Positions 5,314-32,317 of a DNA stretch of 44,394 nucleotides are shown here, one piece after another. Within the stretch, counting starts at the first letter, position 1. The number at the start of each line of letters is the position of its first letter. A model generated the notes under the pieces. It did no database searches and had not been told where the DNA came from. It saw only the letters and a program-made list of their open reading frames with translations. The stretch is from IMG/VR virus record IMGVR_UViG_3300034105_000115, positions 1 through 44,394 of that record, one strand, 5' to 3'. The position numbers and the translations under genes are program-made. This DNA is from a virus.

Positions 5314-8300
5314 TTAGCGTGCAGTAGCAAAATTGAATGCAGTTTCGGCGAAAGCTGCGTAGATCATAGTGTTACCAGAACCATTTTGTGCTGCGCCAAG
5401 ATCTCGTAATTTGAATCCATTAGATAGAATATCAACAGCATTCCAACTTGATGATTCAACATTTGAAAGGTTTGCTGCAAGTTCTGCATTAGCTACATTG
5501 TTTATACTACGTGAGGCGTCTATTACTTCCCAATCATACCCCGCTGTACCCACACTTGTGTTCTTTAACAGTATATATCGTGGCTTAAATCCAGTATAAA
5601 CAAACGGTCCGTCATTACTACCATTACCCGTATATTTCCCGAAGGCACTATATCCTGCGACTGGTGCCCAGCAGTAAGCTATATAAGTCCAGGCAGTCTG
5701 AGATGGTACAGTACCAATACTAAATACAGATGCTGTTGGAGTTGTGCTATTCCAGTACAGTGCACTACTATATGCTGAACTAGTAAGGTTAGGATTTAGT
5801 CCTAATGTATTACCAAGGGAGGTATGATAAGCGTACCAATTATCTGCATTATTTCTAGATTTTATAATCATAAAAGAGGGGGCTACACCAAGCCCATGGC
5901 CTATTGTAGCATTCGCCCCAGTACCCGTATATCCCACAACAGAGAATCCAGCAGCTTGATTAGCACTTACAGTTGATGTGATTGTACCGGCAGTATTATT
6001 GTTAGCACTTACTGCACCTCCAGCTTTCCATTGCCAAGCAACGTAGGTAGTTGCATTGTAATTTCCGCCACTGTCACTACCATACCCATATCCATTTGAA
6101 TTGAATGAAGTAAGGCGTTGTGCGCTATATTGTTCTGCGTTTGTTGCATCAGAAAAAAGAGTATTTCCAATTCCACGAACTGAGTCATATAACGTATTGT
6201 TATAGGCATTATTTCTTGATTTTGTCCAAACCAAATCAGGCTGAAACGATATTCCATTGATTGCGTTATTGATATTTTGTGTTGAACCATTACCAGTATA
6301 CGTCGTAGCAGCCATAGCTGTTGCAGGATTAAGAACTGCGGAAGCTGGCAAGTTATAAGTATTTAGTGCTAGGAAGCCTGTGGGTGGTGTATACGTGAAA
6401 GGGCGTTGACCGAAGTTAACACTTGCTCCAGTATTACCGCCACCATTGCCAGGAGTGTTACTATACGTGGAAGCAAATGGGATTGTGTTAGAAGTTATGC
6501 CAGTAAAACTAGGCCCTGTCCCTGCGGAAGGATTACCCGCAATCCATGTGCCGTTTACGCCAAGCCAAATTTGCCCAACAACCGCATCAAAAGCTACCAT
6601 TAAAGTATCGTTAACAGCAGGCGTTATAGAGGTTGCAGTAGTCGCACTATTGCCAAATATAGAATAAACGCCAACAACAGGCCAATATATACCCCAAGCT
6701 TGCGCGTTACTTGGAGGGTTTATACCTGCGCTTGTTAAAGACAATAGTAAGATACCAAACTCAGCTCCCGCAGAAGCAGACAAACCCCCAAGAACCCCTT
6801 CCCAATAAAACTTAGCACTTCCATATGCTGGCGCAATAGTTGCGATTGTAGTGTGCCATGCGCCAGTAGTGCTTGCATCTTGAAAAGTAAGGTTTGCTTG
6901 GCTTAGATATGCTCCCGAGTTGTTTACGTTATACAGGGGGTTCCAAGTAGCATAATTACCCACAGTAGCACTTGATGGAACTGGGCTGTCTAACATAGAA
7001 TCGTAATTTGATCCGGCAGTAAGACTGACGTAGTTCGGTGTCCAATTATTATTGTTACCAGATGAGTCTTTACCGATTGAAACTACAAAGGGATTCTGTA
7101 CAGACATTACTACAGAACCTCCGTTGGTAATAGCATAACTATTGCCACTGTTGTCTACAAGAGAGGCACCTTGCAATGTCAATACTGTAGTATTAGTTAC
7201 TGCAGTAAGTGGCGCTATAGTCGGGGAAAAGTTAGAAGTATAAACTGCAGTTCCATTGACTGATCTAAAGTTAGAAATGTAACCTTGGAAGAATCCTGAT
7301 GTGGCATCATATGATCCAATGTACCCAACACCTCCTGCAAGACTATCACTACGTGTAATAGTTACTTTTGAAATACCATCTACATATACATTTACAGTAG
7401 TACCGCTTCTGACAACTGCAACATGATGCCAAGTACTAAGTGTAAGTTCACTAGCTGAAGTTATATATTGTGCAGCAGATACCCCAAGATCCAACCTTAA
7501 TTGTGATACACTTGCTTCATATATTAAGTTAATACCTTGTAGGGACCACAATCTTGCATTAGCCCCATTGGTAATAGCAGCGCCAGTAATATATACCCAT
7601 GCTTCTTGTGTAAAACTAGAAGTACCAAAGGCTGGTAAAGAGGCTGTTGCTACGTATTGACTACTGCCATTAAATAATCCTGCATATGTTGTTGTAGAGG
7701 ATACATTTGTAAAGGGTAAATAGAAACCATTTATACCATAAGTACTGGCGTAAGCCTTAGGAATCCATGCTCCTGAAGTTACACTAACTTCGCCGAAACT
7801 TGCTGGAGTTAACGCCTGACCGTCAATGAAATTGACTTCTGTCATTTCACCATCATGGTATTCCCATGCCCCACTATATGCAGCTGAAAAATAGTGTCTT
7901 GAAGCACTATTTATGTATTCAACTTGACTAGACGTAGGTTGAGTCCCAGTAACCGTTTGTATGGCACCATTAACGTATAGAATCAATCTGTTACCTGCAG
8001 TTGCGTTTGCGCTATCATACACACAGACAATGTGATACCAAGCTGCTGGGTCACGAAATACTGCGGTTGTTGTTGCTGTTGCAACAGACCCGTTAAAAAG
8101 TAGTTGATCTGATGAGTTAAATTGAATAGCAGTCCTGACAGATATAGAAGAGTAGCCTTGGAATAAACCTCCTCCTGCACCAAGTCTTCCGCGCTTAACC
8201 CAAGCACTCCAAGTCCATTTAAGTGGGTTAGTAGCTGTTGTAAGTGTCCTGTTCAAATACGAACCGCCAGCAGCTCTAAATCTCAACGACTTAGCAACTA

Positions 8301-9279
8301 CATATAAAACTGTAATAGTAATAGAGAAAGCTTTAGGGCTATCTTGTAATTCAGCATCAGTAGCGACTACTGTAAAGTTATATGTAGTTTCTACACTGAT
8401 ACCAGTTACAGTGCCTGATAGTAGACCACCACTGGATAGTGTTAAACCCGCGGGTAATGTGCTACCACTTTGCAGCGCATAGACAACTGCGCTATCGCTG
8501 GTACCGGATAACTGTATAGAGATAGCGGTATTAAGTTTACCATTAGCTAATGGTGATGTAGATACCCAAGTTGGAAGCGCACTAAAGGTAATTGCATTAA
8601 CCCTGATTGCTACTGCTCCACTGGGATTACTAACGTACAAGATATAAGTGCCAGCAGCTAGGGCTGGTAGTTGAGCACGCACTTCAGTAGAACTTATAAA
8701 AGTTACTGAAGTTGCGATTACATTGCCAACTACTATGGTACATCCGCTAACAAAACCTGTACCTGTGACCTTGATATATCCGCCAGTTAAACTAACTGCG
8801 GTATCATCAGTATTATTGTAGCTAGCATCAGTAACTGTGATACCACTAATAACTACTCCGTCACCTGGCGGGCCTTGAATACCTTGAATACCTTGGGTAG
8901 CACCTGCTTGAGATGCTTCTACCCAAACTCCGGTAGTACGTACATAAAGTGATCCATCTGTAGTATCATACCACATCATGCCTTCAATAGGAACTGCAGG
9001 TGCTGTAGAACCACTATAGCTAGCTGTGATTGATGCGTCGCTAGAAAAGCCAATTACTTCGATCTCATCATTAACTGCAGCACCTACCGCTAACGTGATT
9101 GAAGTTCCTGAAGTTGCAGTATAGTCAACAACGTTCAAGCGTACACCATTCTGATATACGTCTACATATGGAGGGGAGTACACCACCGCGAAGGCGGTCT
9201 GCCCAGACGTTGCAATGTAACTTCTTTTATCTATGGCGTTTTTGCCGCTGCCCTGGATTAAAGTACTTAATTGTGTCAT
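5314..9279 (-). CDS. Giant multidomain tail protein: IPT/TIG, Ig-like, LamG x2, SPRY-like, DUF7483-like
   Basis: A 1321-aa protein, probably a long appendage that binds host surface glycans. An N-terminal fibre module (GQTAFAVVYSPPYVDVYQNGVRLNVVDYTATSG, about 27-75) is followed by the PIEGMMWYDTTDGSLYVRTTGVW module and a short collagen-like IQGIQGPPGDG. Then come an IPT/TIG-like domain (about 145-235) and an Ig-like domain ending SGGLLSGTVTG. A LamG/concanavalin-type domain (about 328-526, WTWSAWVKRG...RDPAAWYHIV...NGFYLPF) is followed by a second, unrelated-looking LamG (about 527-725) placed between NGFYLPF and GKDSSGNNNNWTPN. A SPRY-like domain follows (about 755-980, FYWEGVLG...IWLGVNGTWI). 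The C-terminal third (about 985-1321) is paralogous to the whole protein at 9286-10317. Domain calls are by eye. A start at ATG 9279 is supported by AAGG 8 bases upstream. Confidence 0.8.
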   Translation of the reverse strand: MTQLSTLIQGSGKNAIDKRSYIATSGQTAFAVVYSPPYVDVYQNGVRLNVVDYTATSGTSITLAVGAAVNDEIEVIGFSSDASITASYSGSTAPAVPIEGMMWYDTTDGSLYVRTTGVWVEASQAGATQGIQGIQGPPGDGVVISGITVTDASYNNTDDTAVSLTGGYIKVTGTGFVSGCTIVVGNVIATSVTFISSTEVRAQLPALAAGTYILYVSNPSGAVAIRVNAITFSALPTWVSTSPLANGKLNTAISIQLSGTSDSAVVYALQSGSTLPAGLTLSSGGLLSGTVTGISVETTYNFTVVATDAELQDSPKAFSITITVLYVVAKSLRFRAAGGSYLNRTLTTATNPLKWTWSAWVKRGRLGAGGGLFQGYSSISVRTAIQFNSSDQLLFNGSVATATTTAVFRDPAAWYHIVCVYDSANATAGNRLILYVNGAIQTVTGTQPTSSQVEYINSASRHYFSAAYSGAWEYHDGEMTEVNFIDGQALTPASFGEVSVTSGAWIPKAYASTYGINGFYLPFTNVSSTTTYAGLFNGSSQYVATASLPAFGTSSFTQEAWVYITGAAITNGANARLWSLQGINLIYEASVSQLRLDLGVSAAQYITSASELTLSTWHHVAVVRSGTTVNVYVDGISKVTITRSDSLAGGVGYIGSYDATSGFFQGYISNFRSVNGTAVYTSNFSPTIAPLTAVTNTTVLTLQGASLVDNSGNSYAITNGGSVVMSVQNPFVVSIGKDSSGNNNNWTPNYVSLTAGSNYDSMLDSPVPSSATVGNYATWNPLYNVNNSGAYLSQANLTFQDASTTGAWHTTIATIAPAYGSAKFYWEGVLGGLSASAGAEFGILLLSLTSAGINPPSNAQAWGIYWPVVGVYSIFGNSATTATSITPAVNDTLMVAFDAVVGQIWLGVNGTWIAGNPSAGTGPSFTGITSNTIPFASTYSNTPGNGGGNTGASVNFGQRPFTYTPPTGFLALNTYNLPASAVLNPATAMAATTYTGNGSTQNINNAINGISFQPDLVWTKSRNNAYNNTLYDSVRGIGNTLFSDATNAEQYSAQRLTSFNSNGYGYGSDSGGNYNATTYVAWQWKAGGAVSANNNTAGTITSTVSANQAAGFSVVGYTGTGANATIGHGLGVAPSFMIIKSRNNADNWYAYHTSLGNTLGLNPNLTSSAYSSALYWNSTTPTASVFSIGTVPSQTAWTYIAYCWAPVAGYSAFGKYTGNGSNDGPFVYTGFKPRYILLKNTSVGTAGYDWEVIDASRSINNVANAELAANLSNVESSSWNAVDILSNGFKLRDLGAAQNGSGNTMIYAAFAETAFNFATAR

Positions 9280-9285
9280 ATTTTA

Positions 9286-10317
9286 TTACCTTGCATTAGA
9301 GTACTTTAAAGGGTTTTCAGCGAAGGCTGCGTAGATATATGTTGCGGCAGAGTTATTGTTCCCATAACCAGCGGGTGCTCTAATCTTAAAACCATTAGAC
9401 AAATAATCTATGCCGTAGGGTTCTAAATACTCAGCAGAAGAACTGTTTGGGTACAGTACATTCTTTTCTTCGTTAGCTGTATTCCTAGAACTATCTGTGA
9501 CGTACCAATTAGTAGCCACCGTACTAGACTTAATCATCAACCACCGTGGTCTAAACCCAGTGTAAATAAACGGACCATCCGCACTACCATTGCCCGTGTA
9601 TGACCCAAATGCGCTGTAACCTGCTATCGGCGCCCAGCAGTATGCGACGTAGGTAGCAGAGGCGGTGCCAGTCCAAGAAGATAAACTAGAGTAGGAAATC
9701 GTTGTTGAAGTTGATGAAATCCATTGCCCAGCTTGCGCTGCATCAGCAATGTTTAAGACTATGTATTGCGTTGGAATTGACACATGATATACAGCCCAAC
9801 TTGGGCCAGCAGCGGACCTATTCTTTACAATTATTAAGCTAGGCGCAACACCAAGACCATGCCCTACAGTAGCACTTGCAGAGCCATTCCCCGTATACGT
9901 CACCACACTGAACCCAGCAGTGGTGTTAGCACTCACCGACGATGTGATAGTCCCCGCAGTGTTGCTGACCGCTGTGCCACCGGCTTTCCATTGCCAACCG
10001 ACGTAGGTCGCTGCACTAGCATTTAATCCAGACTCTCCACCATTAAATGCAAAACCATTAGTATTTAATGCTGTAGTAGTAGTAGTAAGTGTATACTCAG
10101 AATCTGTAGTATTTGAATACAGTGCTTTGTTTACACCTACGACTGAATTTTGTATATAGTGGTATGCACCTGAGCTTCTAGATTTCGTCCATAAGAGATC
10201 CGGCTGTAGTCCCACACCATTAATTACATTGCTAATGGTATTAACTCCACCACTACCCACATAAGTTGTAGCAGCCATCGCCACTCGTCCATCAGGTACT
10301 GCAAATGTAGTTGCCAT
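9286..10317 (-). CDS. DUF7483-like tail protein, detached C-terminal partner of the 1832-aa protein
   Basis: A 343-aa protein paralogous over nearly its whole length to residues about 985-1321 of the 1321-aa protein: AMAATTYxGxGxxxxIxNxINGxxxQPDLxWTKSR, TYVGWQWKAGG, VGHGLGVAPSxxIxK, AYCWAPxxGYSAFGxYTGNGSxDGPFxYTGFxPR, and IYAAFAENPLKYSNAR at the end. Domains of this type are widespread in phage tail appendages, usually at the end of LamG/SPRY proteins, but their function is not established. The gene lies in the same frame as the 1832-aa gene and is separated from it by a single TAA followed by GGAGCAATC and ATG. The AAGGAG ribosome binding site overlaps that stop. It may therefore be made as a separate subunit that reassembles with its upstream partner. 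Confidence 0.75.
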   Translation of the reverse strand: MATTFAVPDGRVAMAATTYVGSGGVNTISNVINGVGLQPDLLWTKSRSSGAYHYIQNSVVGVNKALYSNTTDSEYTLTTTTTALNTNGFAFNGGESGLNASAATYVGWQWKAGGTAVSNTAGTITSSVSANTTAGFSVVTYTGNGSASATVGHGLGVAPSLIIVKNRSAAGPSWAVYHVSIPTQYIVLNIADAAQAGQWISSTSTTISYSSLSSWTGTASATYVAYCWAPIAGYSAFGSYTGNGSADGPFIYTGFRPRWLMIKSSTVATNWYVTDSSRNTANEEKNVLYPNSSSAEYLEPYGIDYLSNGFKIRAPAGYGNNNSAATYIYAAFAENPLKYSNAR

Positions 10318-16197: not shown

Positions 16198-17535
16198 TTA
16201 ACCTCCGAATATCATTGCCATAGCAATGACTTTACCAACACCCTGAGCGGGACCTATAGGACCCTGTGGCCCAATATTTGACATAACCTGCCAAGTAGTT
16301 CCATCAAAGATCAATTGTACCATCAAGCCTCTAACATCAAGCACTAAATCTGTTGTAGATGCTTCAATTGTGGATCCATTGCGGGCTACAGTTAAGTTAT
16401 TGACTGCCCAGTTACCTGCATCCATGAAGTAGACGTAGTCGCCTGCTGCTGGGCTAGCTGGTAGAGTAACTATGAATGCTCCTGCAGTAGTATCTGTTAC
16501 GTACTGTTTCTTAGTAGTTGCAGTAGTATTAGCAGTGATCTTGGTCCAAGCTCCGCCACCTGTGGCTGCAGTTGCTTGCGTTGTGCCGTCTGGGAACTTG
16601 AAACCAGTTAGTGTGGATTCTATTTGGCCGGCTACTGCCATATTACCAGAAGAATCAATACGTAGCCGTTCAGTAGTACCCGCAGCAATGATAACCGTGT
16701 TTGCTAAACCAGCAGTGCCCGGTACGGAACCAATAATAGTATTGTTGCTGCCTGTGGTTAATGCATTTCCTGCGTTATATCCTATACCTATATTAGCACT
16801 GCCAGAGGTATTAGCATTTAATGAATACGCACCAACTCCTGTGTTTTGTGCACCTCCAACATTATTATATAGTGCACTTGCACCTACTCCTGAATTATTA
16901 GCACCTGTAGTATTATAAAAAAGTGAATATGCACCTATTGTTGAATTATTAGCACCTGTATTATTTAATCTAAGTGCCGTGACACCTACAGCTGAATTAC
17001 CGGCACCGCTTAAAGCAGCGCTACCTAATGCACTAGCACCAAGAACAGTATTTCCACCTACAGCATTAGCACCGAGTCCTACAGTAAGCCCTTGAATAGT
17101 TGCACCACTAGAGAAAGTTGGAACTACTGTAGTAGTTGCTCCACGAGCAGTAACTGTAGCTAGGGTATCAGTTTCGGTATAAGAACCTAACTTACCATTA
17201 AACGTAGTCCAGTCAGCCGAACTTAAAGCACCTCTATTAGTTGCAGAAGCTGTGGGTAAATTTAAAGTAATAACTGGAGTAGTGGTACCAGTAGCTACAG
17301 TAGATGTAACATCTGTACCTGTAGTGCCTAGAGTTAAGGCAGCAACACTTGTTACGGTACCAGTGTTAGTAGTATAGCCACTAGGGTTACTAGATGCATA
17401 AGCACCTAAATTAGTAAGAGCAGACGCAGCAGTTGTAGCACCGGTACCGCCCTTCAGTACAGGAATCGTACCTGTAATATTGGTAACGTCTACTGCTAGG
17501 GTATTTTGAACCAAAGAACTTAATTGTTGTGCCAT
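16198..17535 (-). CDS. Tail fibre with adhesin-head-like repeats and a shared TLPASP/LTVARNG module
   Basis: A 445-aa fibre. The N-terminal segment (VLKGGTGATTAASALTNLGA) is the widespread GGTGA-type fibre element. It is followed by a Thr-rich stalk with WTTFNGKLG. Residues about 165-275 contain four to five degenerate repeats of the form NTGxxNSxxGxxALxxNT (for example GNSAVGVTALRLNN, NNSGVGASALYNN, QNTGVGAYSLNAN). They resemble the left-handed roll repeats of YadA-type adhesin heads and some phage fibres. About 325-435 is a module (AWTKI...TLPASPAAGDYVYFMDAGNW..LTVARNGSTIE...) nearly the same as one in the 18037-19458 protein. It ends with GPQGPIGPAQG and a hydrophobic tail. Probably a trimeric fibre; the trimer assignment is inference. 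Confidence 0.75.
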   Translation of the reverse strand: MAQQLSSLVQNTLAVDVTNITGTIPVLKGGTGATTAASALTNLGAYASSNPSGYTTNTGTVTSVAALTLGTTGTDVTSTVATGTTTPVITLNLPTASATNRGALSSADWTTFNGKLGSYTETDTLATVTARGATTTVVPTFSSGATIQGLTVGLGANAVGGNTVLGASALGSAALSGAGNSAVGVTALRLNNTGANNSTIGAYSLFYNTTGANNSGVGASALYNNVGGAQNTGVGAYSLNANTSGSANIGIGYNAGNALTTGSNNTIIGSVPGTAGLANTVIIAAGTTERLRIDSSGNMAVAGQIESTLTGFKFPDGTTQATAATGGGAWTKITANTTATTKKQYVTDTTAGAFIVTLPASPAAGDYVYFMDAGNWAVNNLTVARNGSTIEASTTDLVLDVRGLMVQLIFDGTTWQVMSNIGPQGPIGPAQGVGKVIAMAMIFGG

Positions 17536-17546
17536 ATTTTATCCAA

Positions 17547-18026
17547 CTATGTTGTAAGAACTGGCCACTGAACATTAAAGGGCCAATCTTTTTGAGCGGA
17601 TATATCAGCGAGAGCTTGTACATAAGTATCGAGCTTTGCTATATCATCTATCTGAGGCTGGCCCATACGTTGTAGACGTGCGTAGCGTTCAAAACGCCAC
17701 TGAACTTCTTTGATCAAGTATTCTCTTGTAGCACGTTGACTACGAGCTACATTTTGTGTACGTATTGATATAATATCTTCAGGAGTTTGTAGATCTTTTT
17801 GCCAAGTTACTTGCCATTGATTATCTATTAGTTGAGGCGTTTGCGCAATATAGTCGTATGCATCTGTTATACGTCTATCAGGAACTACAACTGAAACCAG
17901 ATTAAATTCTGCTAATTGTTCTGTGGTAGCGGGCAAAACTAGCCCAGCTACTACAGCTTCCTGATACGAGGTACTAGTTAAAGGATATTCTGTGATAACA
18001 CCATTATTTATTTTAGCTAAGTGCAT
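17547..18026 (-). CDS. Tail fibre assembly chaperone-like protein
   Basis: Start set at ATG 18026 (MHLAKINNGVITEYPL), giving 159 aa, with AAAGGA 6 bases upstream that overlaps the previous stop codon. The longer open frame reads into the preceding fibre gene and is not credible. The N-terminal part has the short strand pattern AKINNGVITEYP seen in fibre assembly proteins. The C-terminal half is helical with RSQRATREYLIKEVQWRFERYARLQRMG, and ends DTYVQALADISAQKDWPFNVQWP. That resembles the RDxLL...YRQALRDI...WPxxP signature of phage tail assembly chaperones encoded next to fibres. It would help fold or attach the neighbouring fibre in the host cytoplasm. It lies between two fibre genes, which fits. 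Confidence 0.7.
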   Translation of the reverse strand: MHLAKINNGVITEYPLTSTSYQEAVVAGLVLPATTEQLAEFNLVSVVVPDRRITDAYDYIAQTPQLIDNQWQVTWQKDLQTPEDIISIRTQNVARSQRATREYLIKEVQWRFERYARLQRMGQPQIDDIAKLDTYVQALADISAQKDWPFNVQWPVLTT

Positions 18027-18036
18027 ATTGTTTCCT

Positions 18037-19458
18037 TTAACCGTACCTGTAGAAACCAAATACTCTAAAAGTATAAGTTCCACTAAATGTACATACATTA
18101 GCATATGTATTACTAACTGTACTACACTGAGCATCTGTCATAGATATTGCTATATAGGTTTTAGAACTGCTGCTTTTTGTTTCTACGATAGTGCAATTAA
18201 CTGCAGTTGCTGTTACACCTGCAGAGTCCAAAACTACTATACCGTACCATACTTTACTAGAATTATATGAAGGGGGGCCAGACCATCCATTACTTAGATT
18301 AAATACTGCATTGTAATTACTACTAGGTGTATAGAACACAGTAGCCATTTGCGTCATTGTAGATTTAGGTGCAATAGCAAATCTAACACCGCCCGATCCA
18401 GTACTGATACTCATTGCTCCACTTTGAGGAGTGCCGCTTGTGTAAGTATATACATTAAATGAGCCAGATACAGCATAACTATTCCACGTTCCGCCCGGTG
18501 AACTACCAGAAGAGTTGAAACTATCTTCTCCACCCACAAATAACTTGGTAGGTGCGTAATTACTACCACTACCATCATAGTCTGAAGGTAGTGGTAGACT
18601 AGTAGTCCCCATAGAAGTAGCAACCATACTATACCAACCAGAACCTCCTCCGGCAGCTGCTGCAACAACAGCCCAGCTTACTGTACTTCCGTTAGTTGTT
18701 AAGTACTTGCCGCTATTGCCAGTTTGATTTGGCAGTTCTGGTGCACCACCTAAGCCAACGTAATTGGAAGTTACACCAGTTATACGTCCATAAGTGTCAA
18801 TGGTAATTATTGGCATATAGATATAACCACTATTATAGTAGTTATCGCCATAGGTACCAGCTGACACACCAGATGTTGCTAACGAAATAGTTTTAGCTGC
18901 ACTCCCGTCAAAAGTAGTTCCGGAATTAAGTACCAGACCAGTACCAACAGTAAGTGCATTAGTGGTAGTTCCACCACCACCTGAACCTGCAGGTCCTTGC
19001 GCACCTTGAGGACCAATATTACAAGCAAGTTGCCAAGTAGTACCGTCATAAATCAACTGTACTAACACACCTTTTAGGTTTAGTAATAGATCGTCTGCTA
19101 CACCTTCGATTGTCTTACCGTTACGTGCAACTGTTAAATTGTTAGTTACCCAGTTGCCTGCATCCATGAAATATACATAGTCACCTGCCACGGGACTTGC
19201 AGGCAAAGTAACTGTAAATGCTGCTGCAGTAGTATCTACTAAATATTGTTTTCCAGCAATAGCAGGGTTAAGGGTCGTACTAATTTTAGTCCAAGTCCCT
19301 CCACCGCCCCCACTAATACTTTGCACAGTATTATCAGATTTTTTATAGTAAATCTTACCATCTGCATAGTTTAAAGCAATTTCTCCATACGCTAAATCTC
19401 CCACTACGGGTACTTTAAGCGCTACTGAGGAATTCTTAATTTTTATCGTTTGTGCCAT
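18037..19458 (-). CDS. Tail fibre with MAQTIKIKNSS head and shared TLPASP/LTVARNG module
   Basis: A 473-aa fibre starting at ATG 19458 with AGGAA 7 bases upstream. The N terminus (IKIKNSSVALKVPVVGDLAYGEIALNYADGKIYYKK) matches the widespread phage fibre head IxxKRS....P.....GELAxNxxDxxLYY. It is followed by the WTKI...TLPASPVAGDYVYFMDAGNW...NNLTVARNGKTIE module (about 55-150) and a collagen-like GPQGAQGPAG. Then come a long beta-rich shaft and a C-terminal domain (about 270-473) with Tyr/Ser-rich sequence ending TYTFRVFGFYRYG. The C-terminal domain shows no similarity that I recognise and is a good candidate for receptor binding. The module order differs from the neighbouring fibre at 16198-17535, which carries the same module at its C-terminal end. 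Confidence 0.75.
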   Translation of the reverse strand: MAQTIKIKNSSVALKVPVVGDLAYGEIALNYADGKIYYKKSDNTVQSISGGGGGTWTKISTTLNPAIAGKQYLVDTTAAAFTVTLPASPVAGDYVYFMDAGNWVTNNLTVARNGKTIEGVADDLLLNLKGVLVQLIYDGTTWQLACNIGPQGAQGPAGSGGGGTTTNALTVGTGLVLNSGTTFDGSAAKTISLATSGVSAGTYGDNYYNSGYIYMPIITIDTYGRITGVTSNYVGLGGAPELPNQTGNSGKYLTTNGSTVSWAVVAAAAGGGSGWYSMVATSMGTTSLPLPSDYDGSGSNYAPTKLFVGGEDSFNSSGSSPGGTWNSYAVSGSFNVYTYTSGTPQSGAMSISTGSGGVRFAIAPKSTMTQMATVFYTPSSNYNAVFNLSNGWSGPPSYNSSKVWYGIVVLDSAGVTATAVNCTIVETKSSSSKTYIAISMTDAQCSTVSNTYANVCTFSGTYTFRVFGFYRYG

Positions 19459-19499
19459 AGTAAGTTCCTAAAAAGGAGAAATCTGATAAACTAAAAAGT

Positions 19500-20999
19500 T
19501 TAGTAAGTGCCGCCGTTAATTTCATTAGTCCAAGTTGGAACTCCTGAAGAATTAACAGATAATATTGTGCCGATTAAATTTGTAGCATCCCAAGTGCCTG
19601 CAGTAGTAACTCCTACTGCAGAAGTACCGTTACCAAATACTACACCTAGAGAAGTTAAAGTTGTATTACCTGTGCCGCCGTTAGCTACAGCAATTGTAGT
19701 GCCATTCCAAGTACCTGTTCCGATAGTACCTAATGTGGTAATCGAAGTTTGTCCTACATAGGTAGAAGCAATATCAACAGTATCTGCATTAATTGTAATA
19801 CGAGCAGCAGTACCGCCTATATCAATAGTATTACCATTTTTGGTAAGACCTGCGCCTGCAACAACCATACCAGCACCGGAGAACTGAGTAAAAGTTAGAG
19901 CAGTAGTGCCTAGAGTAACAGCACCGTCGTTAGTACAAACCCACCCTGAATCAGCATTTACAGCACCTTCTTGTACGAATACAAAAGATCCGCCCGCTAA
20001 TTCACCAGTAGTTGCATCCGAATCAGCAGTACGAGTCCATAAACCAGAAGCTACATTATACAAACCATTCTGTGAGCCAGTAGTTTGATCTTTAACTAAG
20101 ATTCTATCGTTAGTTACTAGTACTATGCCATCAACTGTTTGATTACCTGAAAGAGTAATATTCGTTGTAGTTGTTGCGCGAACTGCGTCTTTTACTGTTA
20201 AGCCTTGACGCGTAGCGTCAACATACTGTTTAGTTGCCGCGTCTTGCGCTGCTGTAGGGTCTGCTAAGCCTGTAATTTTCTGACTATTGAAAGATACTGC
20301 AGCACTAGGTGCAGTCATCTGATCTAGTCTATTAGTTCTTACCTGAGTATCAAAGTCACTAATTTTACTAGCTGCAAGAGTAGGAATATCGGTAGCACTA
20401 AGAGTAGTTCCGGAAGTTATTCTGCCTTTGGCATCTGTCGTTACTTTAGTGTATGTTCCAGCAGTTCCTACAGATGCTAAGGTAAGAGTAATAGCAGTAT
20501 TACCGGAACCTGTAGCATCACCACTAACCGTAATACTTTGATTAGCTGAAATTTTACCATTAAAGGTAGTCCAGTCAGTACTAGTTAAATATCCATTTAC
20601 GCTAGTAGTTGCTGCAGACATACTAACAGTGGCAGTATTACCTGATACTGATGCAGATACTGGAGTAGTACCTACTACTGTTGTAAGGTAGTTTTGGCCT
20701 TTAACATACGCAGTAGTTGCTACTAAGGTACTATTATCAGTAATTGTCTGTGTTATGGCATTTAACGTACCAGTATAAGTTTTATTACCGCTAATAGTTT
20801 GATTAGCTGTAAGCGAGGAGAAAGCCCCAGATCCGCCAATAGCGTCTATAGTTGTAGCAGTACCGCCTGCTCCGCCAGTGCCTTTACCATAATAAAGGGT
20901 GTTATCTACTTCATTGAATGCTAGTTCAGCATTGGCTAGACCTACAGGAGCACCTACAGCCCCTGTAGCTCTACGTTTAATACGAATTGTATTTGCCAT
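19500..20999 (-). CDS. Tail fibre with IRIKRRATG head and long beta shaft
   Basis: A 499-aa protein. ATG 20999 is chosen (MANTIRIKRRATG) because AAGGAG lies 7 bases upstream. The head (GLANAELAFNEVDNTLYYGKG, about 20-42) is the common phage fibre start, probably for joining to the tail tip. The shaft has repeats typical of phage fibres: NQTISGNKTYTG, TSTDWTTFNGKIS, TASKISDFDTQVRTNRLDQMTAP, ITGLADPTAAQDAATKQYVDAT, and DGIVLVTNDRILVKDQTTGSQNGLYNVASGLWTRTADSD. The C terminus is short (VNSSGVPTWTNEINGGTY) and has no separate adhesin domain, so receptor binding may lie with a partner protein. Gene order suggests one operon with the following fibres. Confidence 0.78.
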   Translation of the reverse strand: MANTIRIKRRATGAVGAPVGLANAELAFNEVDNTLYYGKGTGGAGGTATTIDAIGGSGAFSSLTANQTISGNKTYTGTLNAITQTITDNSTLVATTAYVKGQNYLTTVVGTTPVSASVSGNTATVSMSAATTSVNGYLTSTDWTTFNGKISANQSITVSGDATGSGNTAITLTLASVGTAGTYTKVTTDAKGRITSGTTLSATDIPTLAASKISDFDTQVRTNRLDQMTAPSAAVSFNSQKITGLADPTAAQDAATKQYVDATRQGLTVKDAVRATTTTNITLSGNQTVDGIVLVTNDRILVKDQTTGSQNGLYNVASGLWTRTADSDATTGELAGGSFVFVQEGAVNADSGWVCTNDGAVTLGTTALTFTQFSGAGMVVAGAGLTKNGNTIDIGGTAARITINADTVDIASTYVGQTSITTLGTIGTGTWNGTTIAVANGGTGNTTLTSLGVVFGNGTSAVGVTTAGTWDATNLIGTILSVNSSGVPTWTNEINGGTY

Positions 21000-21011
21000 C
21001 AAAGGCTCCTT

Positions 21012-23487: not shown

Positions 23488-23816
23488 GTTGCAATTACCA
23501 AGTAAACTTCTGGAGGAGCATCAGATGTGAAATGATCTAAAGGCGGGAAAGTGACAGTAGTGCCGTTGATAGTAATATTAGAAGGGCTACTAGTGCTAAG
23601 GTTACTAGGAGTTCCAGAAAATAGCACAATCTGAATAATATTAGCTGTAGGATAGCTCTTGACTTGATACCCTGTCTGAGTTCCTGTATTATATACATTC
23701 ACTGAGCCGCTATTTGGTATAAGTGTAACTATATCAACTATACAACCGCCATAGGCGGTTGTAGAATCGAAAGTTTTAGTACCTACAGAGTTGAATGTCT
23801 GTAATCCGTATGTCAT
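23484..23816 (-). CDS. Small MTYGL-type tail tip protein
   Basis: A 110-aa protein coupled by ATGA overlaps on both sides. It opens with MTYGLQTFNSVGTKTFDSTTAYGG, a clear paralogue of the start of the next gene, and continues as a small beta domain (VDIVTLIPNSGSVNVYN..., TVTFPPLDHFTSDAPPEVYLVIAT). Proteins starting this way are frequent after the J-like tip gene in phages. It probably attaches to the tip. No enzymatic motif is visible. Confidence 0.6.
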   Translation of the reverse strand: MTYGLQTFNSVGTKTFDSTTAYGGCIVDIVTLIPNSGSVNVYNTGTQTGYQVKSYPTANIIQIVLFSGTPSNLSTSSPSNITINGTTVTFPPLDHFTSDAPPEVYLVIAT

Positions 23817-26800
23817 CCTAAATTTCCTAATTTAACTCTATATTGATTAGTACTGTCGTATACAGTAATAAGATTATCTGTTATAACTACACGTTGACCG
23901 CTTGTAGCACCTGTTCCAGTAATATCAATCTTACTTGCAGTAACTGCATTGGGTTTAATATTTGAATTACCTACTACAGATCCATTTAATGTAATTCCGC
24001 TACCAGTAGCAGCAGTTGTAACACTAGAAGCACCATCTCCTAAGGTTAAAACTCCATTTACAATACTAAATTTAGGGGCATAAATATTACCGCCAGCTTC
24101 AACGTTAAAGTATCCGGAATTGGGATAGGTACCGGGAGAAGCTTGATTAGCTGCCCAAGCATTATTATTTCCTAATAGTAATCCTTGAGAACCTAGGTAA
24201 AATCCGCCCTCTGTAGATGCTACGGGCCATGCATACGCAGTATATAATCCTCCATATACTGCACCTTTGAAGTAGCCTGCATTAGCATTTACAGTTCCTG
24301 TAAATGTTCCTGAAGTAGCGTATATAGCACCTGTTACAGTTACGTTACCTGCTCTAGTTATACTAAAATTAGGAGAATTTACTACGCCTTCGTTAGTTAT
24401 TTGAAAGAATCCTCTACCACCGCCCGGATTTGCTGCATACGCAGTATAATTACCTATTAAAAGGCCTCCAGAAGTTAGGGCAAACCCCTCACCCACTGTA
24501 GTATTAAGATTTGTTGCAGGATCTATAGGCCAATTATTTCCATATTGAGGTAAGTAAGCTCCTCCATACACGCCCCCAGTAAACGAACCTGTAGCTGCAC
24601 TTAAAGATCCAGCAAAAGAACCAGTAGCTGCACTTAGAGAACCAGCAAATGAACCAGTAGCTGCACTTAGAGAACCAGCAAATGAACCAGTAGCTGCACT
24701 TAAAGACCCAGCAAATGTACCAGTAACAGCATTCAAAGATCCAGCAAAAGAACCATTAGAGCCCGATATATCTCCCTTAAATGTAGCATTACCCGTGGTA
24801 GCATCAATATTGAAAGTATTTGTACCTAAAGAATTATACCCTACTAATCCTGCTGCTGTCAGAGCTATGCCTGAACCAGAAATTCTAGACCCTGCAGTAT
24901 TCCATCTCAAGTTACCCGCTACAAAGCCAGCATTATTGGTTGCAGTATCGATACTTACCGTAGCCGCTAATATTGAATCTGATGATTTAGATAGTTTAGT
25001 AGCTAAACCAGTAGTGGCATTAGTAACTGCTAATGCATTAGCCGCTACAGTTTCAGCAAGTGTACCCCCTACGTAGGTTCCACTAGGGGCACCTTTAGTA
25101 GCATCTAGATCACCCGTGTAGCTATAGTCTTTAAGTGTAAGAGGAACATAAGAATTAGATACTCCAGTTAACATTCCACCAACAATAGAGAACCCTATAG
25201 CACACCAAGCATTAACGTCACCATCAGTAGTACCTTGATATGCCTCAGCTCCATTACCTTCGCCACATCCGCCTATACCTACTAGTATATATGAAGCCCT
25301 GTATTTAAAGTTCGCAGACCCATATACTACTCTACTTGCACCACAGCGATACATTGCAGTGTCTAGCCCACTAGTTAATCTATTACCTTGAGGCTCGTCA
25401 AATCCTATTACTACTATAATGCTGTCTACGTATGCAGCATTGAGATCAGCTGCTAGAGTGGCTGCGGTATACCCACCTACTGCACCTGCACCATAAACAT
25501 CATAGGTTCTTGTAAAAGTTATCTCTCCAGATGCTCTAGCTATTTTTATAAGAGTATAACTACGCCCATATGTACCTGATATATAGGTTCCATTTTTATA
25601 TAATCCAGCACTAACTAGTGAAGTTGTAGCTGCGCTACCATTAGACCCAACTATAAAAGAGTTCTGACCTATTCCAGGTAAAGTTGTATTTCCTGTACCC
25701 GCATTATTTAAACTACCGTTTGCATTAACAGTAATAATACCATTATCTACTATTTTATTAGCAGTACCAATCCCTGTTAAGACTCCCGTAGAACTAATAG
25801 TAATAGCAGGTACAGTTAAGCTACTACCATCATATAGTAATCCAGTACTACCACCTACACTGAATTTATACGCAGTAGTATCATATCCTAAGAAGAAACC
25901 TGCCTGTGCATAACCAGTATTTCCAAAATTCCTAATACTACCAGTTGTAGATACTGTTAAATTACCAGTATCTACTGCTAGAGCACTAAGACTGCCAACT
26001 TTAAGATTACTTAAATAAGGGTTGCCCCAAGTAATTATACCAGGACTAGGATTAGGGTTGTAAATTCCATCTACTTGATACATATACTGACCAGCAGTCA
26101 GTGTACTTGTAGCTGTAAAACTCCATGTTCCTGCAGTAGAGGTAGGGACTACATCTCCAGTACCTGCAGTTACTGAACCTGGAACAGTACCACTAGTATT
26201 AACTACATATGCAGTTCTAGCTGAAGCACCTGTTAGACCAATACTTCCATCCTCTCTATATCCAATACTGTTAGATACAGCACTTGACCAGTTAAACGCT
26301 GTACTAGTGGCACTTGCTACGTCAGATATAACCAAACCAATCTGGTATAGCACATAGCCCGTAGTAGCAGGGGCTGCTCCTGCTGAAGCTACCCAACTAC
26401 CTGGATACGCTGATATTGCTCCGTTACTCCAAGTATAAGTAGCAGCTTGAGTATATGCAGGAGTACCACTATTAGACCATTGGGAAGCATATATAGTTGT
26501 AGTCTTATTACCGTCAGCACCTACTTCACCTTTGATCTTAGACCACGTATACGCAGTATACGTTGTACCCCCGGGAGGGTTTTCCGTAGTTTTATTGGTA
26601 GCTATACCTATATAAGTACGAGTACCAGCACTAGTACTAAAATTAGTTCCTACAGCATCATCTGCGTATGCAATCCAAGTATAGGTAGTAATACCATTAG
26701 TACCATCAGCACCTCCAATAACTAAAGATATTGGAGTAAAATATGAGCTAACTACAGATGGCCCGGATATGGCAATCTTTTCGACGCCTTGACCTTTTAA

Positions 26801-29800
26801 CAAACCTACAGCACCTATAAAAGCGTGTGAAACTTCCGAATAGTTAGTATCTCCAGTAATCCAAGTATTAGGTAATCCACCGCCTTTATTATTAATAGCT
26901 GCACGTAGATTAGGTGTACATTGACATGCATCCGCTGAAATAAGTACTATTATATAATTAGTATTTGTAATACTATTAAGATATGACGCTAAATCATCTG
27001 CAGTACCTGCAGAAGTTACTCCACTTCCATGGTTATATGTATCATAATTAATATCGTATACTAGAGTATTTGTACTACGATCATACAATTTTAGTCTATG
27101 CCCGCGAGTAGCTGAATCTCCCTGTGCTACATTATCTATTTTAAAGTAAGAATTGGTACTTCCACTATAATCTGTATTACCAGAAGCTACAATAAGCTTA
27201 GCACCTGGTTCACCGGTAGCACCAGTATCACCTTTAATCTTAGACCAAGTATAGTCAGTATATGTTACAGAAGGCGTTGAAGTAGTCTTATTACTAGCTA
27301 TACCTACATAAGTGCGAGTACCTGCAGTAGTACTGAAATTAGTTCCACTCGCGTCATCTGCATACGCAATCCAAGTATAACTAGGAGCACCAGCCTTAGC
27401 TTTAGTAAATTTTTGTTCTACTGTTCTACTAATTGCGAACCCTAGACTAGTTTTACCCGTTATAGTATATGTAACTGTACCGGATGTAGAATCTGTAAAA
27501 CTTTGCAGTGCACCTACAGTAGCGTAGTCCCCCGAATCTGTGATAGTAGTAGCAACAGAATTTAGCCCTGCAGAATCTGCTTTAGTAAAACGCCAGAACC
27601 CGTTTGCAGTAGAAATTGCATCATATATTAAAGGCGTATTACCTTCATAAACTCTAATCTGTGTTCCAGAAGTAGAATTTGTTAATACTGGATTACTACC
27701 ATCGTATGCCGCAGCTATTGTAGGATTAGGGTTTGATAGCTCAACTCTAATAGTAGCTAATTCAATTTGTTTATAATCTATACTTACAGTAGTAACAGTA
27801 ATACTTAAATTACCACTAGTATCTTTATGACGAATTAAAATAGTATAGTTATTAGTTACTGGGCGTACCCAATCATACGTATTTGCAATGCCTTCAAATA
27901 GATCAAGTGCAGTATCCCATGTATTATGTGCAGTATCTCCTGTAACATAATACTTGATTATTGTTGAAGCATAATCAACTTCTGGACAAGGGCTCCAAGA
28001 TAAATTAATTGCACTTTCATTAATTTTAGGACTGCCGGATACTAGGGTAACATTACTAGGTGGGTTAGACTTACCTACTACTGTATGACTAAAAGGGCTG
28101 GTCCATAGACCAGTACGTCCATCTTTACCAATATATCGTAACTTTATATCATATGAGGCTGCTTGTTGTACATCAGTAAATCCAATAATTCCATCATTGA
28201 AATTTACTAGTACATTACTAATATTAGCACTATCTCCATTAGTTAATTTTATCTGTCCTTCAACTGATGCAACTGTAGTAGGCATCCCAATAGGATTAGT
28301 ATAAGGTACTTTAATCTTGTATCTAAATACTCCTGCAGAAATTAGTTCCATTACCGATTCATCACTACGTACTAAGGCATCATCTATGCCAGGTACAAAA
28401 GTACCTAAATTATCTATCTGTAATACAGGAGCCAACGTAATATTAGATTCAAATACTAATGCTGCAGTTTTATCTGCGTAGCTATTAAATATATTATATC
28501 CGCCATTAGGTACTACACCATAATCTACAAGGGTTAATCTTGCTGATTTTGCAGAGCCCGTAGGTTCTATACTTAGTACAATTAAATCTTGAGATTCATG
28601 ATTTAAAGTACCGAATAAGAATAGATCTCCATCAGTCTGTGTTATAGCAGTATTTACTTTTATAAAGGTATAATACCCATCATTTAAAGCTGCTGTTCCT
28701 GTTAGTGCTGTGGTACCAATATCTGATACCCCGCCTTTACTATAAGTTATAGTAGTTGGAGATATTGCGGTTACTTGAGCTGTTGCTGTATTTAGTCCAG
28801 ATATCGAAGTATTAATAGTTAGGAAATCGCCTATCCGTATTGCATGAGTATCGATAGTAAGAGTTACTGTAGAACTTAGTATAGAATAAGCACTGACAGT
28901 GTAATTAATTACTAATCCTGCTGTGTTACTAGCACCTGTATCAGTACGAAATCTTAGAGTATAACTACCAGTACGACTAATAGCTAAAGGTTCGTCTAAT
29001 TCAAATGTAGTAGTACTTAGTACATTTTTAATACGTCCACTACCAAGACCCCACATAGGTACATCGTGATTTACCTTTACGCGATCTCCTCGATTGCATA
29101 CTAAATACTCAACGTCAGTATTCAATGTATAAATTTCTGGACGTAGTTTAATCTGTGCCATGTGCCAGCGCGCATGGTCTACTACGGAAGCAGCTTTAGT
29201 AACACCAGGTAAACTAATAGTTTCAAATAAAACTGCGGTGGTTGGTCCTTGGCCCGTTGCATATACGATAATTTCTTTTTGTGTATAGTTATTTTGTTCA
29301 TCATAGAACTGTACTTTTAAACCGTCAGGATACTTAGGTAGTAGTTTAGTAGACTCAAAACCCCAACTATTATGTGTGCTGAAGTGTTGAATTATATCTG
29401 GTTTTTCTCTATCAATAACTACAGTCCACTTACCATCTACTAAAGCCGGAGATGCCCTACCTGCTGCACAAATGTCGCGTAGTACCTCTAGTACACTACG
29501 TTGATTACCTAATACTGAATTATATTCAAATCCTTTAGTAGTGCAGTAAGCACTCCACTCTTGCAAACTAACCAAGTTAATTTTAGTATCTATATCTGAA
29601 TCTACAACTCTTTGTGGGTTTGCTGGATGTTGCAGAATATATCTAAATAAATCTGCAGGATTACTAGTAACGCGCGATACCCAGGCTGCTCCGGTCCAAG
29701 ATAGGCAATAGGTTTGTACTATTGCATTAATACCTTGAATCTGACTATTTAATTGACCGGTGGCTTTAATATTTATTGCAGTTTTAGCTATTGAACAATT

Positions 29801-32317
29801 AATAGGATCATTAGTTATTGTTGCTGAATTTCTATATACTGTAACGCTCTGAAGAATAGATTTAGAATATTCTTCATAATTTAAATCTTGGTTCTGTCCA
29901 GTTTCATCAGTATGGTGACCTTCATTAGGAACTGCTCTGCGTATTCTAATTTCAAAGGGTAAACTAGCCTGAGATATAGTAATAGGGATAACGGCGGTAA
30001 ATCCATCTACTACAGGAGCCGAAGAAGTAGGATCAATAGTATTAAGAACAGACCAATCAGTCCAACCTATAAAAGTAGTAGAAGAAGCAGTAATATCAGA
30101 ATTATACCTTACTTGGTATTGTATTTTATGTACAGCTGGGAAAGTAGTTCCTGCATGGTTACCGAGACTATATACTCTTCTGAGACCATTAGGGTACTGA
30201 ATATTTATAGTTACTTTCTGTATCGGTATAATAATTCCAGCATTATCCACGGAAGGTGCAATAAATTTAGTAGTCCATAGATTGCCACCAGCACCATTCA
30301 CTATAGCTTGTGCAAATATTGGCTCATTTTGCGCATTTGTTACTTGTGTAGTAGTAGTAGTAGTAACCTCTTGTTGTCCAACGTAACTAACAGACGTACT
30401 AGTAACATAAGATGCATCACCTTTACCAGATCCTACTACTACATTAGTATATCCTGGAAATAATAGTTCTACTCCTATAGGCTCTTGTTGTACTAAACTA
30501 CTATAAATTGATTTAAATTCTTTAAGTTTAGTTTCACTAGGGGTGGTTAGATAATTAATAGTAGACTGGGCTACATCATGATAGTTTGTTAGAGGAGTAG
30601 TGCCAATACATAAAGAATTTTCATCAATAGCTAAAGGTCCATAACCCCAACCTAACATCATGGTTAGGTAAGATTCTGAGTAGTTGTAACTAGTAGCATC
30701 TTCATAGATGCAATTAGGTTCGGTCCATCCTTGCCAGGGAATACTAACTACTGCATCGAATGAACAGGGAGTAGCTACCATAGACCATAGTAATTCACCT
30801 GTAGAATTAGTAGGATCGGGATTAGTAGTCCATAGGCTATTAGAAGGGATTCCTGTTAATGTTTTGCTAGAAAAATTGTACTGTGTATCTATGTAAGTAA
30901 TAAGGCTTGGGGATACTCCTAAAGCAGTACGTTGATATAATATTACTGTGGCTGCTTGTAATCCTTCAACAGGAGATATAGTAGATAATGAGCCAGTCCT
31001 GGGTAATACCTCTATTGGAGTAGACCATACATTCCCAGCAAATACAGCATCTGGATTACCTTTTGATGCTACTGTTTCTGCTATACCTTCTGAATTTAGG
31101 GGGACATTAACCGCTGAAGTTGCAACAACCCATATCTTACCTACTACTCCTGTTGGTGGATTTCTGAACCATTCCGAACCATTTTCAAAATATGAAAGAT
31201 CCCGCATGTATACACCAGTACTAAAAGTATATACGAAGGATCCAGGGGTATCTCCTGGAATAGTAGGACTGGCTTTGAATGCGTAGACTACTGCAGTTTT
31301 ACTACGTAGTCCACCATACGTCATGAAGGATGCCGCAGCTACAGGTGGAGTTATACGCATTTTACCTAAAACTACAGGTATTGCACCATATTGATTAATC
31401 TGATTAGCTGCTCCAGTAATCATTAGCTGGGAAGTACCCTGTGCAGGATTAATCTGTGTAGGGGGCCTAATAGGTGCTATTGCATTAATTAATGCTCCGC
31501 CTACCATCATTGCGCCCATATTTGCTGCTGCAGTGGCCGCAGCAAGGGAGACTCCTGTTAGTCCAAGACCTACAGTGGATCCAACAGCTCCTGCAACACC
31601 TACACTAGGACCTAGTGTAGATAGTAACCATGCTTGTCCCGATGCAATAGCAACTACTAATGCTAAAGTCATTAGTAGACGTCCGGTACTTCCACCTTCT
31701 GGAACCGCACGATACTCTACTACGTCAGTATCTTTTAGAATTGTAGTATCCCACTGATCTTTAGGGATTACTCTGGTATTTACAATGATATGTACAATTT
31801 TAGCCAATTCGGGACTAATATTACATTCTTTATTAACCCAGTCATATAACTGTGTTAAAGTAGTACCTTCTGGAATAGGTACAGTTATGCGTTCTGTTTT
31901 TAAAGGATGTGGAATTGCATTTAGAGTAGCTCCAGTAGAGTACTTATAGTAACCACCAATACGTTTTGCCCACTTTACAGAACTAAAACTTTCAATAGCT
32001 ACATCCATGCCTTCACGTACATGAATGAAATGAGTATTAGATATTGCGATACCAATATGTGTTTCAGCCCCTAAGATTCTAAATAGTACTACACATCCTT
32101 CTTCGGGGGTAGTTTCTTCTTTCCAGCCTTCACGATATTGATCAATTAACTCCTCAATACGTGCATTATCAGATATACTGTATTCAGTAGAAAAACTAGG
32201 TAAGTTAATATTAAATTGTTCTGAATAAACAAGACGTGCCAATCCCCAACAGTCTAGACCTGTTTCATCTCTACCATTAGCTTTGTATGGGATACCTACA
32301 TATTTATTTGACCACAT
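23813..32317 (-). CDS. Tail tip fusion protein: NlpC/P60 peptidase (K) + I-like + J-like host specificity protein
   Basis: A 2834-aa protein that combines three lambda tail-tip functions. Residues 1-130 form an NlpC/P60-like peptidase with the Cys motif DCWGL (C23), a His in ETHIGI (H87) and a third His (H99), probably cutting peptidoglycan or used in tip assembly. About 149-272 is gpI-like, with a ubiquitin/MoaD-type strand (ITVPIPEGTTLTQLYDWV) and then a hydrophobic segment. From about 292 it is J-like (ITGAANQINQYGAIPVVLGKMRITPP). A fibronectin III-like domain lies at about 1409-1512. The pair TYTWIAYADD...YTWSKIKG occurs twice. ILEI/PANDER-like domains lie at about 1709-1859 and 2219-2392. 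Tandem GSFAGSLSAAT repeats lie at about 2523-2577. The end (SGQRVVITDNLITVYDSTNQYRVKLG) is typical of J-like proteins. The start overlaps the previous stop as TAATG. Confidence 0.88.
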   Translation of the reverse strand: MWSNKYVGIPYKANGRDETGLDCWGLARLVYSEQFNINLPSFSTEYSISDNARIEELIDQYREGWKEETTPEEGCVVLFRILGAETHIGIAISNTHFIHVREGMDVAIESFSSVKWAKRIGGYYKYSTGATLNAIPHPLKTERITVPIPEGTTLTQLYDWVNKECNISPELAKIVHIIVNTRVIPKDQWDTTILKDTDVVEYRAVPEGGSTGRLLMTLALVVAIASGQAWLLSTLGPSVGVAGAVGSTVGLGLTGVSLAAATAAANMGAMMVGGALINAIAPIRPPTQINPAQGTSQLMITGAANQINQYGAIPVVLGKMRITPPVAAASFMTYGGLRSKTAVVYAFKASPTIPGDTPGSFVYTFSTGVYMRDLSYFENGSEWFRNPPTGVVGKIWVVATSAVNVPLNSEGIAETVASKGNPDAVFAGNVWSTPIEVLPRTGSLSTISPVEGLQAATVILYQRTALGVSPSLITYIDTQYNFSSKTLTGIPSNSLWTTNPDPTNSTGELLWSMVATPCSFDAVVSIPWQGWTEPNCIYEDATSYNYSESYLTMMLGWGYGPLAIDENSLCIGTTPLTNYHDVAQSTINYLTTPSETKLKEFKSIYSSLVQQEPIGVELLFPGYTNVVVGSGKGDASYVTSTSVSYVGQQEVTTTTTTQVTNAQNEPIFAQAIVNGAGGNLWTTKFIAPSVDNAGIIIPIQKVTINIQYPNGLRRVYSLGNHAGTTFPAVHKIQYQVRYNSDITASSTTFIGWTDWSVLNTIDPTSSAPVVDGFTAVIPITISQASLPFEIRIRRAVPNEGHHTDETGQNQDLNYEEYSKSILQSVTVYRNSATITNDPINCSIAKTAINIKATGQLNSQIQGINAIVQTYCLSWTGAAWVSRVTSNPADLFRYILQHPANPQRVVDSDIDTKINLVSLQEWSAYCTTKGFEYNSVLGNQRSVLEVLRDICAAGRASPALVDGKWTVVIDREKPDIIQHFSTHNSWGFESTKLLPKYPDGLKVQFYDEQNNYTQKEIIVYATGQGPTTAVLFETISLPGVTKAASVVDHARWHMAQIKLRPEIYTLNTDVEYLVCNRGDRVKVNHDVPMWGLGSGRIKNVLSTTTFELDEPLAISRTGSYTLRFRTDTGASNTAGLVINYTVSAYSILSSTVTLTIDTHAIRIGDFLTINTSISGLNTATAQVTAISPTTITYSKGGVSDIGTTALTGTAALNDGYYTFIKVNTAITQTDGDLFLFGTLNHESQDLIVLSIEPTGSAKSARLTLVDYGVVPNGGYNIFNSYADKTAALVFESNITLAPVLQIDNLGTFVPGIDDALVRSDESVMELISAGVFRYKIKVPYTNPIGMPTTVASVEGQIKLTNGDSANISNVLVNFNDGIIGFTDVQQAASYDIKLRYIGKDGRTGLWTSPFSHTVVGKSNPPSNVTLVSGSPKINESAINLSWSPCPEVDYASTIIKYYVTGDTAHNTWDTALDLFEGIANTYDWVRPVTNNYTILIRHKDTSGNLSITVTTVSIDYKQIELATIRVELSNPNPTIAAAYDGSNPVLTNSTSGTQIRVYEGNTPLIYDAISTANGFWRFTKADSAGLNSVATTITDSGDYATVGALQSFTDSTSGTVTYTITGKTSLGFAISRTVEQKFTKAKAGAPSYTWIAYADDASGTNFSTTAGTRTYVGIASNKTTSTPSVTYTDYTWSKIKGDTGATGEPGAKLIVASGNTDYSGSTNSYFKIDNVAQGDSATRGHRLKLYDRSTNTLVYDINYDTYNHGSGVTSAGTADDLASYLNSITNTNYIIVLISADACQCTPNLRAAINNKGGGLPNTWITGDTNYSEVSHAFIGAVGLLKGQGVEKIAISGPSVVSSYFTPISLVIGGADGTNGITTYTWIAYADDAVGTNFSTSAGTRTYIGIATNKTTENPPGGTTYTAYTWSKIKGEVGADGNKTTTIYASQWSNSGTPAYTQAATYTWSNGAISAYPGSWVASAGAAPATTGYVLYQIGLVISDVASATSTAFNWSSAVSNSIGYREDGSIGLTGASARTAYVVNTSGTVPGSVTAGTGDVVPTSTAGTWSFTATSTLTAGQYMYQVDGIYNPNPSPGIITWGNPYLSNLKVGSLSALAVDTGNLTVSTTGSIRNFGNTGYAQAGFFLGYDTTAYKFSVGGSTGLLYDGSSLTVPAITISSTGVLTGIGTANKIVDNGIITVNANGSLNNAGTGNTTLPGIGQNSFIVGSNGSAATTSLVSAGLYKNGTYISGTYGRSYTLIKIARASGEITFTRTYDVYGAGAVGGYTAATLAADLNAAYVDSIIVVIGFDEPQGNRLTSGLDTAMYRCGASRVVYGSANFKYRASYILVGIGGCGEGNGAEAYQGTTDGDVNAWCAIGFSIVGGMLTGVSNSYVPLTLKDYSYTGDLDATKGAPSGTYVGGTLAETVAANALAVTNATTGLATKLSKSSDSILAATVSIDTATNNAGFVAGNLRWNTAGSRISGSGIALTAAGLVGYNSLGTNTFNIDATTGNATFKGDISGSNGSFAGSLNAVTGTFAGSLSAATGSFAGSLSAATGSFAGSLSAATGSFAGSLSAATGSFTGGVYGGAYLPQYGNNWPIDPATNLNTTVGEGFALTSGGLLIGNYTAYAANPGGGRGFFQITNEGVVNSPNFSITRAGNVTVTGAIYATSGTFTGTVNANAGYFKGAVYGGLYTAYAWPVASTEGGFYLGSQGLLLGNNNAWAANQASPGTYPNSGYFNVEAGGNIYAPKFSIVNGVLTLGDGASSVTTAATGSGITLNGSVVGNSNIKPNAVTASKIDITGTGATSGQRVVITDNLITVYDSTNQYRVKLGNLG
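24585..24749 (-). repeat. 33-bp tandem repeat in the tip protein (about five units)
   Basis: Units begin at 24585, 24618, 24651, 24684 and 24717, each exactly 33 bp; the last is degenerate and a partial unit follows. They encode the 11-residue repeat GSFAGSLSAAT near the C-terminal end of the J-like protein. The third unit differs from its neighbours by few bases, which suggests recent duplication. It probably forms an extendable beta stalk. Confidence 0.9.

Follow-up and report, generated by a model that had tools for sequence, protein, structure and literature searches.

We asked whether the tail-tip protein encoded in the virus record IMGVR_UViG_3300034105_000115 (IMG/VR), whose whole 44,394 bases are here called the window, carries two domains of the ILEI fold, and what such domains would do at the tip of a phage tail. 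A first-pass annotation of the bare sequence had placed two FAM3/ILEI-like domains in this 2834-residue protein, at 25140-27190. Both segments that it quoted were found there letter for letter, on the minus strand within the open reading frame (ORF) 23813-32317; counted from the ATG at 32317, its residue numbers were about 32-35 too low, so that RLKLYD starts at residue 1741 (not 1709) and YTLIK at 2254 (not 2219). The best explanation of the data, which we consider likely, is that a C-terminal extension of the tip protein carries two ILEI modules of different subfamilies, of which the second (copy 2) would act as a lectin and the first (copy 1) would have altered or lost its specificity.

The annotation had suggested a profile comparison with the Pfam ILEI family (PF15711) and, run in an equivalent form, this comparison matched both segments. 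Against the whole protein PF15711 scored 36.7 bits (E=6e-9) by way of two stretches, each of which, scored singly, lies under the curated cut-off of 27 bits (copy 1, 21.9 bits, E=2.6e-4; copy 2, 25.6 bits, E=1.8e-5). Scored singly, nine of ten copy 2 relatives exceed that cut-off. A profile made from 18 phage domains and searched against all PDB chains retrieved FAM3B (1e-7), FAM3A (1e-5), TMEM2 (5e-5), FAM3C (3e-4) and POMGnT1 (6e-4). The profile was required, since PDB searches with copy 1 or copy 2 as single sequences gave nothing relevant. Matches of one small profile (A1) to antibody single-chain variable fragments were spurious, due to a DTAMYxC motif, and were not relied on.

AlphaFold2 models were obtained for copy 2 (predicted local distance difference test, pLDDT, 83; predicted template modelling score, pTM, 0.82) and copy 1 (pLDDT 74, pTM 0.75). 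When these were compared with the PDB by Foldseek, the top 21 matches of copy 2 and the top 17 of copy 1 were all FAM3A/B/C, POMGnT1 or TMEM2 structures with probability 1.00, and the other matches shown for either copy had probabilities of at most 0.09; the fold anticipated from the sequence was thus the only one matched by the predicted structures. Because the summed profile score, the relatives that individually exceed the cut-off and both predicted folds agree, we assign the two copies to the ILEI family; as modelled, both have the FAM3/POMGnT1-stem type of fold. Lying inside a 2834-residue tail protein, and not being stand-alone secreted proteins, they fall outside the FAM3 family proper. 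The annotation had also singled out a CGEGNG segment as present only in copy 2. This is literally correct. The corresponding loop of copy 1, however, contains GLLKGQGVE, and the cysteine of CGEGNG is not conserved across the relatives of copy 2. Indeed, among relatives in the second subfamily (type 2) no cysteine column is invariant or nearly so.

In the stem domain of POMGnT1, R129, D179 and R207 contact the sugar; this human domain, FAM3C and nematode Fam3L2 bind sugar, whereas Fam3L1, without D179 and R207, does not (PMC9802357). These residues are positions 43, 93 and 121 of the POMGnT1 chain (the spacing fits an offset of 86, counted by hand), and a copy-1-type profile aligned them (hmmsearch) to the R-D-R columns of the phage domains. 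Copy 2 has the full triad, with R2252, D2307 and R2340 at the three positions, and copy 1 has R-D-E, a charge-reversing change. R-D-R is found in all seven copy-1-type relatives and in all five animal proteins compared, and E1828, a clear departure, has no counterpart among the other sequences examined outside the gp35 proteins described below. In 71 sequences, with gp35 left out, the three columns are 91%, 89% and 82% conserved and rank 6, 8 and 14 of 140, the value for D179 being inflated, as this residue was part of a scan pattern. The subfamily motifs RGH and HAFIG are retained in copy 1.

The POMGnT1 stem lectin domain (PDB 5ggj, 5ggf) matches the fold of both copies with probability 1.00, and its R-D-R aligns with that of copy 2; unlike the phage domains, it belongs to a human glycosyltransferase with demonstrated sugar binding, and identity in the structural alignments is 13-21%. 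FAM3A/B/C (PANDER, ILEI) and the N-terminal domain of TMEM2 have the fold and the R-D-R residues in common with the phage domains, but are secreted animal proteins or an ectodomain, a context that the phage copies lack along with conserved cysteines. Like the tip protein, Caenorhabditis elegans FAMP-1 (Fam3L1, Fam3L2; PMC9802357) has two ILEI domains, of which only the second has the complete triad. It is, however, an animal protein, and Fam3L1 has lost two triad residues and sugar binding, while copy 1 has lost one residue.

The nearest tail-tip relative found, that of Curvibacter phage P26059A, aligns with residues 4-1513 of the window protein (52% identity in the J core). Its homology stops at residue 1513 and it contains no ILEI domain, so both copies lie in an extension past the conserved core. 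C-terminal extensions of this kind are a common place for the host-recognition modules of phages.

Copy 1 sits in a cassette. By tblastn it matched Alteromonas phage AD45 Pb4 (E=3e-11) and Streptococcus and Lactococcus phages (O1205 ORF45, E=1e-4; TP-778L, E=0.01), the link to the streptococcal phages being obtained through lenient tblastn only; close relatives of copy 1 were found in neither viral contigs nor genome contigs. The copy and its flanks (residues 1694-1936) are collinear with residues 1064-1312 of TP-778L Tal (33% identity over about 240 residues, E=3e-15). Within this span the match to copy 1 itself covers Tal residues 1094-1207, inside CBM_1 (1085-1252), which has been modelled as a POMGnT1-stem-like carbohydrate-binding module (PMC9437275); the residue published as R1119 of TP-778L seems to correspond to R1118 of the GenBank entry. 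The CBM_1-type order of collagen-like linker, ILEI domain, collagen-like linker and three-strand module is present. The modules on the two sides of copy 1 resemble each other (TYTWIAYADD...KIKG) and are common to streptococcal and lactococcal phage tail proteins. Copy 1 thus shares with CBM_1 of the Streptococcus thermophilus phages TP-778L and 9851 its fold, flanking modules, location in a tail-tip protein and the equivalents of R129 and D179. It differs in having glutamate at the R207 position and in being accompanied by a second, different ILEI domain, in a lambda-J-type tip with fused NlpC/P60 and gpI whose relatives are in phages of Gram-negative bacteria.

The group of copy 2 comprises the domains of Bacillus phage G gp431 and of Dickeya JA phages (about 37% identity for these domains) and those in 56 viral contigs; a search of genome contigs with the copy 2 alignment gave no match. 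The carrier proteins of these relatives also hold a GDSL esterase, LamG, a CBM_5_12-like stretch (slightly under its cut-off) or an endosialidase chaperone. Both the carrier proteins and the phage types of other ILEI tail proteins (phage G gp431, Dickeya JA, Erwinia Y3, Basilisk-like phages and Lactobacillus LfeInf) differ from those of the window. Two viral contigs (G005 and G007, loci L008 and L011) each have two ILEI matches in separate ORFs.

The two copies probably did not arise by duplication. A tree of 40 domains placed copy 1 among AD45/TP-778L-type domains (support 94/90) and copy 2 in another group (93/90), and the streptococcal-type cassette that surrounds copy 1 has no counterpart around copy 2. 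Duplication within this gene followed by divergence would suit two copies about 500 residues apart in one protein, and ILEI pairs are also present in other single viral ORFs (L065, L066/L067, L095); moreover, constraining the copies to one clade was disfavoured but not formally rejected (approximately unbiased test, p=0.056). With the tree and the cassette opposed to it, we regard this origin as highly improbable. Given the recurrence of such pairs, we also dropped the idea that paired ILEI copies are unique to this protein.

A more serious challenge to a role in binding comes from gp35, the hinge connector of the T4 long tail fibre. T4 gp35 has a PF15711 domain over the cut-off (35.9 bits, E=1.1e-8; gene 35 at L029:4688-5806, further gp35 loci L030-L035), and so, as in the window, an ILEI domain lies in a phage tail fibre protein. 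An acidic residue occupies the R207 position in T4, RB69 and JS98 gp35, as in copy 1. Both domains might accordingly have a structural part in a long tip fibre, as spacers or as modules that organise a trimer, and make no host contact. However, the triad, which copy 2 and most type-2 relatives keep, is short of two or three residues in six of the seven gp35 proteins; only that of Cronobacter phage GAP161 has it complete. The window domains, moreover, lie in a variable extension and, in relatives, beside carbohydrate-active modules. On balance we find a purely structural role for both copies improbable. The gp35 pattern fits the notion that ILEI domains which bind would keep the triad and those with a structural role would lose it; no paper on the ILEI domain of gp35 or its triad loss was found in the literature.

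Several points weigh against reading copy 2 as a lectin and copy 1 as its altered counterpart. T4 gp35 shows that the ILEI fold can serve as a connector in a fibre, and saccharide-binding data for an isolated ILEI module of any phage were not found. The copy 1 model is of moderate confidence, and template modelling scores to PDB structures are only about 0.4-0.6. Other features of the phage family are better conserved than the triad, which, in the widest scan, is complete in only 31 of 48 unique type-2 domains. Its most tolerant position across the wider type-2 set is that of R207, where H, K, S and other residues occur and, because of this tolerance, E1828 may not abolish binding; we therefore dropped E1828 as proof of lost binding.

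This bears on a refinement of the favoured explanation that is compatible with it, namely that copy 1 is a lectin with shifted specificity and the tip recognises two surface glycans. Copy 1 looks maintained and not decayed, as R1738, D1796, RGH and HAFIG are kept, and the copies belong to well-separated subfamilies in the tree. Yet binding could simply be lost when the charge of a contact residue is reversed, and Fam3L1, with D179 and R207 lost, shows none (PMC9802357). We think this refinement possible, at somewhat less than even chances. The annotation had proposed different ligands for the two copies, and this is plausible from their sequences, because they fall into separate subfamilies and copy 1 has E1828 at the R207 position. 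A broader proposal, which we put forward a shade more tentatively, is that one tip combines two FAM3/POMGnT1-type lectins from different phage lineages that recognise different glycans, and that the R-D-R state would predict which phage ILEI modules bind sugar and which, such as that of T4 gp35, are structural.

Under the explanation that we favour, of a lectin-like copy 2 and an altered copy 1, the extension most likely displays the ILEI modules as part of host recognition, presumably in trimeric form as in J/Tal homologues. During adsorption to a host that is presumably Gram-negative, copy 2 would attach to a saccharide on the cell surface. Its predicted site consists of the POMGnT1-type R-D-R together with family-specific elements, namely DEPxxxR, a nearly invariant glutamate, the GxGxG loop and the MYRCGAS helix. 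Copy 1 would have arrived as a cassette of the kind that serves streptococcal and lactococcal phages as CBM_1 and, with glutamate at the third contact, might recognise a different ligand, be a weak binder or serve only as a spacer. That a tip domain could bind surface glycans, as the first-pass annotation had surmised, is strengthened by the variable-extension position, by the description of a copy 1 homologue as a carbohydrate-binding module (PMC9437275) and by the POMGnT1 triad of copy 2.

That phage tails can carry ILEI domains is not new: these have been recorded in Basilisk-like phages (PMC6145125) and as CBM_1 of TP-778L, and appear in annotations of Dickeya and Erwinia phages and in Lactobacillus LfeInf. 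What is less expected is two subfamilies in one tip, E1828 and the eroded site of gp35. The locus connects a widespread phage adhesion module with a fold familiar chiefly from cytokine-like proteins of animals and from an enzyme of muscular dystrophy, and it shows an adhesion cassette of phages of Gram-positive dairy bacteria in a phage whose relatives by tip and tail tube have mostly Gram-negative hosts. It also yields a residue-level prediction, that copy 2 would bind saccharide and copy 1 none or another ligand.

Table 1. Features of the tail-tip protein in window coordinates.
Feature	Position	Strand	Evidence
Tail-tip protein, 2834 aa (NlpC/P60 + ThiS/gpI-like + J core + C-terminal extension)	23813..32317	-	ORF; Pfam and PHROG domains
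NlpC/P60 domain, aa 8-120	31958..32296	-	PF00877 E=1.8e-12
ThiS-like/gpI-like domain, aa 132-201	31715..31924	-	PF02597 E=4.2e-7
J (central tail fibre) core, aa 697-1264	28526..30229	-	phrog_31 E=1.2e-49, phrog_469, PF13550
Three-strand + collagen-like module before copy 1, aa 1639-1712	27182..27403	-	homology to TP-778L Tal 1253-1315 and 1551-1700, CAP, O1205
ILEI copy 1, aa 1713-1860 (Pfam core 26804-27106, aa ~1738-1838)	26738..27181	-	PF15711 21.9 bits; POMGnT1 stem/FAM3 fold; homology to TP-778L CBM_1, AD45 Pb4
R1738, copy 1 (POMGnT1 R129 position)	27104..27106	-	alignment
D1796, copy 1 (POMGnT1 D179 position)	26930..26932	-	alignment
E1828 (GAA), copy 1, at POMGnT1 R207 position	26834..26836	-	alignment; R in 7/7 copy-1-type relatives
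Collagen-like + three-strand module after copy 1, aa 1861-1945	26483..26737	-	homology to TP-778L Tal, CAP
ILEI copy 2, aa 2236-2392 (Pfam core 25268-25552, aa 2256-2350)	25142..25612	-	PF15711 25.6 bits; FAM3A/B/C fold; 56 relatives
R2252, copy 2 (POMGnT1 R129 position)	25562..25564	-	alignment
D2307, copy 2, DEP motif (POMGnT1 D179 position)	25397..25399	-	alignment
R2340, copy 2 (POMGnT1 R207 position)	25298..25300	-	alignment

The NlpC/P60, ThiS/gpI-like and J domains are joined in the single 2834-residue protein, and the same N-terminal regions and J core occur in the P26059A tail component. We had considered this K-I-J fusion unusual, an idea that was dropped as the alignment of P26059A with the tip extends from the NlpC/P60 domain across the J core.

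The main genes of the window are on the minus strand; among their products are a tape-measure-sized protein (1689 residues), several that are fibre or lectin-like, and a T5-like major tail protein and tail completion protein. Three consecutive ORFs (258-3833) have Gly_rich_2 (PF21722) at their C-termini and are possibly alternative fibre tips. DUF7483 is found in two adjacent ORFs (5314-10317; E about 1e-104 and 1e-107), one of which also has laminin-G domains. ORFs at 16198-21002 match tail, tail-spike and head-decoration PHROGs, suggesting that many more fibre or decoration proteins are encoded there.

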